Shown here: piece by piece, positions 30,711-58,860 of the stretch
Layout: each line of letters opens with the position of its first letter
How positions within the stretch are numbered: the stretch's first letter is position 1
Position numbers and translations under genes: made by a program
Source of the DNA: Lachnospiraceae bacterium
Lineage (GTDB): Bacteria; Bacillota; Clostridia; Lachnospirales; Lachnospiraceae
Assembly (NCBI GenBank): GCA_022794265.1
Contig: JAAWEK010000001.1
Location: forward strand, 17,343 to 81,342
DNA: 64,000 nt
Direction: 5' to 3'
Notes under the pieces: generated by a model
The model's database searches: none
The model's input: only the letters and a program-made list of their open reading frames with translations
What the model was told of the DNA's origin: nothing

Positions 30711-30773
30711 TCCTTAAACTTTGGGCAGTACCCATATTCACAGAGGTGAGAGATCCTCACCGATTACTGTTCC
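30711..30773 (-). promoter_or_regulatory. expression platform of the cobalamin riboswitch
   Basis: Between the aptamer and the ATG (minus strand) lie a GGTGAG/CTCACC hairpin (30745-30761), a GGG/CCC mini-stem and the ribosome binding site AAGGAGG. There is no T run, so control is probably at translation initiation. Confidence 0.5.
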
Positions 30774-30911
30774 ATGCTGACAGATATCCTGACTTATAGC
30801 TTATCCTAGTACCCGGCCTTCCCGGAAATTTCCAGTGGCAGATTCGGGATTCGTATCTAAATACAGTAGAGTGAGCTGTTACGGATTCTGACCGTATTCC
30901 CATATCAGCAT
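30774..30911 (-). ncRNA. cobalamin (adenosylcobalamin-type) riboswitch aptamer
   Basis: On the minus strand the conserved elements appear in order: GGGAATACGGTCAGAATCC, a CTACTGTA segment, GCCACTG, GGGAAGG and the B12-box-like AAGTCAGGATATCTG. The closing P1 stem pairs ATGCTGA (30905-30911) with TCAGCAT (30774-30780). The B12 box differs a little from AGYCAGGAGACCTGC. It lies between a clear promoter and the surface-protein gene, which it should repress when cobalamin is plentiful. Confidence 0.9.
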
Positions 30912-30960
30912 GTTTTTAGCTGATTATTATCAGCATGTTTCTGGCTGATTATTATCAGCA
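30904..30960. repeat. 25-bp tandem repeat at the 5' edge of the riboswitch
   Basis: Two copies of a 25-bp unit (30904-30928 and 30929-30953, starting ATCAGCATGTTT, differing at two bases) are followed by a partial third copy (30954-30960). Each copy contains the TCAGCAT that forms the 5' arm of P1 in the riboswitch, so three alternative P1 partners exist. Confidence 0.8.
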
Positions 30961-56895: not shown

Positions 56896-57044
56896 TTGAT
56901 GAAAATGATTATTTTTTAAAAAGTCCTAGACTATTTTGACGATTTGTGAGAAAATAAACGCATAGTGCGATTTAATAAACAAAAGTTTTATATTATAAAT
57001 GAAATTGCACAATTGAGAATTATATACTTGAAAGGAGTCTTACG
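56896..57044 (+). promoter_or_regulatory. leader/promoter region of the IscU-like/GGGtGRT pair
   Basis: An AT-rich 149-base stretch with a long-loop inverted repeat: GTGCGATTT at 56966-56974 and AAATTGCAC at 57003-57011, one G-T mismatch. TATTAT and TATAAA-like -10 candidates lie between, but no -35 is clear. AAAGGAG precedes the gene. Confidence 0.35.
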
Positions 57045-57752
57045 ATGATTTATTCACAAGAAATTCAGAACATGTGCCCGGTTGCTCAGGGTGTTAATCA
57101 TGGATGTGCGCCTATTCCTGAAGAGGCGAAATGGGTAAAAGCAAAAGAAATTAAAGATATTTCAGGTTTCACACATGGTGTTGGCTGGTGTGCTCCTCAG
57201 CAGGGTGCCTGCAAATTAACTTTAAATGTTAAGGAAGGTGTGATTCAGGAGGCATTGGTGGAAACCATCGGATGTTCTGGTATGACTCATTCTGCAGCAA
57301 TGGCTGCTGAGATTTTACCAGGAAGAACGATTCTGGAAGCTTTAAATACGGACCTTGTCTGTGATGCCATCAACACAGCTATGAGAGAGTTATTCTTACA
57401 GATTGTTTACGGACGTTCCCAGTCTGCATTCTCAGAAGAAGGACTTGCAATCGGTGCCGGTCTGGAAGATTTGGGTAAAGGACTTCGTTCTCAGGTTGGT
57501 ACTATGTACGGTACACTTGCAAAAGGACCTCGTTATCTGGAAATGGCAGAAGGATATGTTACCGCTATCGCTCTTGATGAAGATGACCTGATTATCGGAT
57601 ATAAATTTGTCAGTCTCGGAAAGATGACAGATTTTATTAAAAAAGGTGATGATCCGAACACAGCTTATGAAAAAGCATGCGGACAGTATGGCAGAGTTGA
57701 TGATGCGGTTAAGTTAATTGATCCTAGAACAGATAAAGAAATTGCGAAATAA
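57045..57752 (+). CDS. IscU/NifU-like iron-sulfur scaffold-like protein
   Basis: This 235-residue cytoplasmic protein resembles the NifU-N/IscU scaffold fold: a central ACKLTLNVKEGVIQEALVETIGC segment with a conserved Cys77 in GCSGMTHSAAMAAEILPG. Other cysteines are Cys11, Cys21, Cys49 and Cys56; the pattern GWCAPQQGAC is distinctive. The C-terminal half has a predicted extra domain (YKFVSLGKMTDFIKKG). It precedes the GGGtGRT gene by 17 bases. No IscS, SufS or SufB is nearby, so it may not be a general Fe-S scaffold. The function is unknown. AAAGGAG is strong and codons are biased, suggesting high expression. Confidence 0.75.
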   Translation: MIYSQEIQNMCPVAQGVNHGCAPIPEEAKWVKAKEIKDISGFTHGVGWCAPQQGACKLTLNVKEGVIQEALVETIGCSGMTHSAAMAAEILPGRTILEALNTDLVCDAINTAMRELFLQIVYGRSQSAFSEEGLAIGAGLEDLGKGLRSQVGTMYGTLAKGPRYLEMAEGYVTAIALDEDDLIIGYKFVSLGKMTDFIKKGDDPNTAYEKACGQYGRVDDAVKLIDPRTDKEIAK

Positions 57753-57769
57753 TAGAGGAGGTAACGATA

Positions 57770-58780
57770 ATGGCTTTATTTGAATCATATGAAAGAAGAA
57801 TTGATAAAATCAATAGCGTATTAAACAGCTACGGTATCTCTTCCATCGAAGAAGCTGAAAAGATTACAAAGGATGCCGGATTAGACGTATATAATCAGAT
57901 TAAAGGAATTCAGCCGATTTGTTTTGAAAATGCATGTTGGGCATACATAGTTGGTGCAGCTATTGCAATTAAGAAAGGCTGCAGAAGAGCAGCAGATGCA
58001 GCAGCAGCAATCGGTGAAGGACTTCAGTCGTTCTGTATACCTGGTTCCGTTGCAGATACCCGAAAAGTTGGTTTGGGACATGGTAATTTAGGAAAGATGT
58101 TACTGGAAGAAGAAACGGAGTGTTTCTGTTTCCTTGCAGGACACGAATCATTTGCAGCAGCAGAAGGTGCAATCGGTATTGCAGAGAAGGCAAATAAGGT
58201 TCGTAAGAAACCTCTTCGTGTTATCTTAAACGGTCTTGGTAAAGATGCTGCTCAGATTATTTCAAGAATTAACGGATTTACATTTGTTGAAACTGAGTAT
58301 GATCCGTATACCAATACAGTAAAGGAAGTATTCAGAAAATCTTATTCCACAGGTTTAAGAGCAAAAGTTAACTGTTACGGTGCAAATGATGTCTGTGAAG
58401 GCGTTGCAATCATGCATAAGGAAGGTGTTGACGTTTCCATTACCGGTAATTCAACAAACCCTACAAGATTCCAGCATCCGGTTGCAGGTACTTACAAGAA
58501 AGAATGTATCGAACAGGGTAAGAAGTATTTTTCAGTGGCATCTGGTGGTGGTACAGGCAGAACCCTTCATCCGGATAATATGGCAGCAGGTCCTGCTTCC
58601 TATGGTATGACGGATACATTGGGACGTATGCACTCTGATGCACAGTTTGCAGGTTCTTCTTCTGTTCCGGCCCATGTAGAAATGATGGGGCTGATTGGTG
58701 CAGGAAATAACCCTATGGTAGGTATGACTGTTGCGGTTGCAGTTGCGATTCAGGAAGCTGCAGATGCTGGTAAGTTCTAA
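57770..58780 (+). CDS. GGGtGRT family protein (function unknown)
   Basis: This 336-residue cytoplasmic protein carries the motif that names its family, GGGTGRT, at residues 259-265, in a ASGGGTGRTLHPDNMA context. Other conserved-looking segments are FCIPGSVADTRKVGLGHGNL, CFLAGHESFAAAEGA, INGFTFVETEYDPYTN and ITGNSTNPTRFQHPVAGTY. The glycine and histidine-rich loops look like ligand or metal sites, and there are several cysteines, but no fold or reaction can be assigned. It has a strong GAGGAGG site, follows the IscU-like gene at 17 bases, and ends at a good terminator. The two proteins probably work together. Confidence 0.85.
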   Translation: MALFESYERRIDKINSVLNSYGISSIEEAEKITKDAGLDVYNQIKGIQPICFENACWAYIVGAAIAIKKGCRRAADAAAAIGEGLQSFCIPGSVADTRKVGLGHGNLGKMLLEEETECFCFLAGHESFAAAEGAIGIAEKANKVRKKPLRVILNGLGKDAAQIISRINGFTFVETEYDPYTNTVKEVFRKSYSTGLRAKVNCYGANDVCEGVAIMHKEGVDVSITGNSTNPTRFQHPVAGTYKKECIEQGKKYFSVASGGGTGRTLHPDNMAAGPASYGMTDTLGRMHSDAQFAGSSSVPAHVEMMGLIGAGNNPMVGMTVAVAVAIQEAADAGKF

Positions 58781-58813
58781 TTGAATACAATGATATGAAA
58801 AAATAAAAACAAT

Positions 58814-58860
58814 AGAGGATTCTTTAAGATTTGATTCTGAAGAATCCTCTGTTATTTTTT
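58814..58860 (+). terminator. terminator after the GGGtGRT gene
   Basis: AGAGGATTCTT (58814-58824) pairs perfectly with 58840-58850, then GTTATTTTTTAT. Confidence 0.85.

Follow-up and report, generated by a model that had tools for sequence, protein, structure and literature searches.

An IscU-fold protein and a GGGtGRT protein encoded by a conserved gene pair: a candidate abundant iron-sulfur protein of anaerobic bacteria

Introduction

Two adjacent genes in a 64,000-nucleotide stretch of Lachnospiraceae DNA (the whole of which we refer to as the window) raise the question of what a relative of the iron-sulfur scaffold IscU does next to a GGGtGRT protein. The available portions of the open-licence literature naming the GGGtGRT family assign it no tested function, although subscription papers may do so. 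An initial annotation, made from the sequence alone, suggested that the pair may carry out a metal- or sulfur-cofactor step supplying a single dedicated enzyme. Here we describe the organization, distribution and conservation of the pair, and consider what role best accounts for them.

Results and Discussion

Organization of the gene pair

The window sequence confirms that two linked genes 17 bases apart have ribosome-binding sites and a terminator of their own, as the initial annotation described. The features are as follows.

56927..56955, + strand: likely promoter (putative), extended -10 type, with -35 TAGACT (56927-56932), a 17-base spacer and -10 GAAAAT (56950-56955)
57031..57037, + strand: ribosome-binding site of gene 1, AAAGGAG, read from the sequence
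57045..57752, + strand: gene 1, IscU-fold protein, 235 aa
57754..57761, + strand: ribosome-binding site of gene 2, AGAGGAGG, read from the sequence
57770..58780, + strand: gene 2, GGGtGRT protein, 336 aa, PF14057
58811..58859, + strand: intrinsic terminator, hairpin and T-tract, fold -24.6 kcal/mol, z -6.85

A NUDIX-like gene lies upstream of the pair and an ABC transporter-like gene downstream, both named by inspection. Of 72 upstream regions, each 260 bases long (70 genome contigs, one viral contig and the window), 51 contain the -10 motif TGNGA(A/G)AAT; 50 dinucleotide shuffles gave 2.5 on average and never more than 7. The count is of the -10 motif alone, the -35 TAGACT being taken from the consensus. 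This upstream motif common to the relatives looks promoter-like. A generic promoter scan does not list the site at 56927..56955 and gives no excess over shuffled sequence (6 versus 7.0), and a simple terminator scan omits 58811..58859. There is no obvious iron operator in the upstream motif shared by the relatives, and an Rfam scan at gathering scores gives no riboswitch match near the pair. Elsewhere in the window there is a cobalamin riboswitch at 30762-30949 (- strand, 83.6 bits).

The two genes occur together

Linkage across genomes was one of two points on which the initial annotation staked a joint system, and the genes are adjacent wherever upstream DNA is present. Among 196 genomes drawn from the class, 98 contain both genes, 98 contain neither and none is discordant; a gene 1 carrier is defined by a profile match of at least 250 bits, and the other listed matches, at most 35 bits, are ordinary IscU or NifU proteins by length and score. 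A draw of 249 genomes from the phylum, including the window's own genome, has GGGtGRT genes in 16 genomes at 17 places, each with gene 1 directly upstream. A search of genome contigs identified at least 582 relatives. Of the best 80, whose titles are mostly Lachnospiraceae or other Clostridia, 76 have gene 1 upstream, some of them cut by contig ends; the remaining four start no more than 223 bases from the end of their contig. In one of the 76 (L064, 9305-9996) gene 1 is split into two open reading frames beside an intact GGGtGRT gene, reflecting a frameshift or an assembly error, and in Parabacteroides (L111, 9800-9991) a short annotated reading frame of about 63 aa separates the two genes.

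The same ten plasmid or chromid records contain gene 2 and gene 1, adjacent in all ten (three Vibrio, two Persicobacter and one each of Bacteroides, Parabacteroides, Phocaeicola, Collinsella and Subdoligranulum); five of them share one isolate collection and may be pieces of chromosomes. The two genes are neighbours in Clostridia, Bacteroidota, Actinomycetota and Vibrio. Distances for gene 1 and gene 2 are correlated across 140 pairs (r 0.88), and the trees of both genes join Vibrio with the two Persicobacter, which belong to another phylum, with support of 0.996 for gene 2 and 0.78 for gene 1. This suggests that the pair may have been transferred between phyla, with the caveat that the Vibrio branch is a long one.

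Gene 1 encodes an altered IscU-fold protein

The second point on which the joint system was staked is the fold of the first protein, and both profile comparison and a predicted structure of moderate quality (pTM 0.50) place an IscU-type core at about residues 24-125; SufU has this fold too. Scores are 20 bits against PF01592 (IscU and the NifU N-terminal domain), under the curated cut-off of 22 bits, and 19.9 bits against TIGR01999, where the cut-off is 192.4. Beyond the core there is a C-terminal part of about 110 extra residues (approximately 126-235), and an APQ insertion follows C49.

Residues H44, C49, C77 and C106 are invariant, each cysteine being present in 140 of 140 pairs, and G54 and V105 are found in at least 99% of the 140 gene 1 proteins. 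In hhalign comparisons C49 and C77 align with the first two cluster cysteines of IscU, and IscU Asp39 aligns with Gly54. C106 is probably the third cluster cysteine: the two are matched in a pairwise alignment at two of four gap penalties, isolated between gaps, but the match is gone at the two stiffer penalties, and the structural ranges for it are good to about one residue only. The replacement of IscU His105 by Val105 is less sure because V105 sits immediately before the weakly matched C106, and it holds only if that match holds. We dropped an earlier mapping of IscU His105-Cys106 to Tyr122-Gly123, as the structural ranges and the pairwise alignment weakly favour C106. The gene 1 protein resembles IscU and the NifU N-terminal domain in core fold and in two, probably three, cysteines, but differs in its Gly54 and probable Val105, its insertion and C-terminal part, and in having a GGGtGRT partner instead of an adjoining desulfurase gene. 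It differs from SufU likewise in that the Asp position is not kept and no desulfurase gene lies beside it.

Substitutions at these same positions are described in the accessible part of a 2026 review of IscU (PMC13423590). There, the E. coli variants D39A and D39V make the Fe-S cluster more stable; S. pombe D37A stabilises the cluster, and the aspartate is needed for its efficient release; B. subtilis D43A stabilises the cluster so that holo-SufU can be purified aerobically; and M. thermoacetophila H106A is also stabilising. These variants were made in true IscU and SufU proteins, and their effect is carried over to the gene 1 protein by analogy. Because the Asp39 position is changed, and that of His105 probably so, as in the stabilising variants, the altered IscU-fold protein looks built for keeping a cluster rather than handing it on. 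If it does so, it would represent a naturally occurring equivalent of the IscU variants that were engineered for a more stable cluster.

Gene 2 encodes a highly conserved GGGtGRT protein

The gene 2 protein is a full-length member of the GGGtGRT family without distinguishing difference (PF14057; E 4.8e-190, 630.9 bits against a cut-off of 27, profile positions 1-327), with the signature SGGGTGRT at residues 258-265. An AlphaFold2 model (pTM 0.82) has an N-terminal helical part and a Rossmann-like part, in which the signature loop at 259-302 scores a pLDDT below 50. No fold stands out in a comparison with the PDB (VIA-align), and the case for an enzyme therefore rests on conservation: 135 residues, many of them polar, are conserved at 99% or more across the 140 pairs, although no cysteine is invariant. 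On this pattern the GGGtGRT protein looks like a catalytic subunit. In one genome (G207) the pair is present as two divergent copies, the second of which (L017) is 62% identical to that of the window and has the signature GGGIGRT.

Codon bias and response to iron

The initial annotation noted strong expression signals, and codon usage agrees with this. Codon adaptation was calculated relative to the S12, S7, EF-G and EF-Tu genes of the same genome (EF-Tu identified by family match and the others by inspection), which themselves score 0.682-0.810, with EF-G at 0.718. Gene 2 (0.713) and gene 1 (0.652) rank first and second among the 53 window reading frames of at least 150 aa (median 0.479), whereas the ordinary IscU and IscS of the same genome are average (0.492 and 0.444). 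Across 94 long loci, the effective codon number is lowest for gene 2 in 56, compared with 6.6 expected, and gene 2 falls in the lowest quarter in 84; the ten loci where gene 2 is without this bias include Vibrio (L108) and Persicobacter (L113). The pair is apparently abundant, codon bias being a proxy for expression and not expression itself.

A link to iron is supported by published responses in Bacteroides and Clostridium, as given in the available parts of these papers. Iron depletion of B. thetaiotaomicron lowers BT0173-BT0174 ('GGGtGRT protein, nitrogen-fixing protein NifU') by 12.8- to 11-fold (PMC10434189). The C. pasteurianum GGGtGRT protein is higher with iron, 7.1-fold early and 2.2-fold late, which is the top iron-higher value of that table as read from its flattened columns, and with iron the NifU-related protein of the adjoining locus tag rises 1.6- to 3.7-fold (PMC5395762); the Fe-S enzymes PFOR and hydrogenase respond in the same direction in this table. 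Excerpts of other studies report GGGtGRT protein expressed in chicken gut anaerobes (PMC11204068) and in the rumen (PMC7035244), and list a 'Nitrogen-fixing protein NifU' among abundant rumen proteins, with values of 1.72, 1.47 and 0.28 in three columns (PMC6043501). This last entry likely belongs to the gene 1 family, because family members in plasmid records carry that name.

A proposed role and its alternatives

The pair is present in half of the sampled class genomes, its codon bias is close to that of elongation factors and its published response to iron is strong; in many anaerobic bacteria it may encode a major iron-sulfur protein that has been overlooked. We tentatively propose, with rather less than even confidence, that the pair encodes an abundant Fe-S protein of two subunits, probably an enzyme, in which the IscU-fold subunit keeps its cluster. 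The basis for this in our analysis is linkage, co-occurrence, conserved residues, the IscU-type core and codon bias, with the iron response coming from the cited papers; cluster binding, complex formation and catalysis are the steps that we infer. A plausible arrangement is that the two genes give rise to one obligate two-subunit iron-sulfur protein, in which the IscU fold of subunit 1 would have been converted from a transient scaffold to a cluster keeper. Its cluster would be held by C49, C77 and probably C106, and stabilised by the lack of an Asp39 equivalent and probably of a His105 equivalent, and the Rossmann-like GGGtGRT protein would be the putative catalytic subunit. Because codon bias is near the elongation-factor level and expression is lower when iron is scarce, the complex would most likely be a bulk iron-dependent enzyme of anaerobic metabolism; an Fe-S enzyme fits the iron response, the codon bias and the GGGtGRT conservation.

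The wider proposal, that the IscU fold has been recruited as a permanent cofactor subunit of a very abundant gut and rumen Fe-S enzyme (or Fe-S store) whose two genes spread together across phyla and which databases label 'nitrogen-fixing protein NifU', approaches an even chance without quite reaching it. If the IscU-fold subunit keeps its cluster, a major iron-dependent protein would have been recognised in the microbiota of gut and rumen, and the proteome label 'nitrogen-fixing protein NifU' could mean something besides nitrogen fixation.

It is possible, though unlikely, that the pair is instead an iron-sulfur storage protein or buffer. Iron-higher expression in two phyla, the codon bias and the cluster-keeping residues would all fit a store, and a possible parallel is the thioferrate storage protein IssA, which the accessible text of PMC5524996 places in a family with NifB and NifX; the likeness is one of possible role, abundant iron-sulfur holding in an anaerobe. 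Strong ferritin matches (best E below about 1e-20, from a table read by hand) are also rarer in carriers of the pair, 30 of 98 versus 57 of 98 non-carriers (p 1.7e-4, uncorrected for kinship), but the difference is not significant within the eight families that hold both states (9/22 versus 10/17), on which ground we rejected replacement of ferritin by the pair and did not count the difference in favour of the proposed enzyme. It is not obvious why a store would need a partner with 135 nearly invariant residues and no invariant cysteine, and the shared direction of response of PFOR and hydrogenase in the available C. pasteurianum table also argues against this role.

A dedicated scaffold or carrier, which would assemble a cluster for particular enzymes or deliver it to them while GGGtGRT acts as chaperone or release factor, is improbable. 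The IscU-type core with its cluster cysteines and the constant company of the two genes would suit such a role, but the neighbourhood of the pair does not. We analysed 54 loci and counted 47, examining gene clusters present in at least four; seven (L149, L162, L169, L172, L180, L110 and L114) were dropped as the GGGtGRT reading frame was lost to an overlap filter. In the 47 loci the pair has no recurring neighbour that is a desulfurase, a chaperone or a client gene, no other gene cluster is present in more than 11, and none has a fixed position in more than five, for which reason a dedicated client gene as operon partner was rejected. A cysteine desulfurase is absent from beside the pair in the window, as first noted; among the annotated neighbours in three plasmid records, that of Collinsella has a sufCBDSU set about 2 kb upstream.

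The window's genome has a cysteine desulfurase, IscU and Rrf2-type regulator together on one contig (C24; regulator named by inspection) and a SufC-SufB pair on another (C28; SufC named by inspection), and the gene pair is therefore an addition to the Fe-S machinery of the genome and not a replacement. A delivery role is further disfavoured because an assembly scaffold is catalytic and not needed in bulk, whereas codon bias here is far above that of IscU and IscS, and because the aspartate reported, in the part of the review available, as required for efficient cluster release is missing. The same codon bias, together with one clear and one less sure ligand change of a cluster-stabilising kind, leaves the feeding of one dedicated enzyme unsupported, and of the initial interpretation it is the linkage, IscU-type core, signs of strong expression and iron link that stand.

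SufU binds zinc through cysteines and an aspartate. A zinc-dependent, SufU-like sulfur carrier, or another site for a metal other than Fe-S, would be in keeping with the common fold but is very improbable, given the glycine at the aspartate position and expression that tracks iron.

Possible integration near the gene pair

Among various other features of these loci, we note that a tyrosine-recombinase-like gene, recognised by inspection, lies within 1.5 kb downstream of GGGtGRT in 22 of 137 loci with enough DNA (including L146, L156, L164, L165, L175, L096 and L098-L102); no such gene is seen in the window. These genes are of at least two kinds and occur on both strands; five of the 22 are on viral contigs, and two genomes are represented twice. 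A second copy of only the last 29 or so GGGtGRT codons is present elsewhere in seven of the 98 carriers, 2-15 kb away in five, about 49 kb away in one and on another contig in one. Such partial copies are as expected for attachment sites, and the GGGtGRT gene has an apparent hot spot for integration at its 3' end. Several IMG/VR contigs start at this gene pair.
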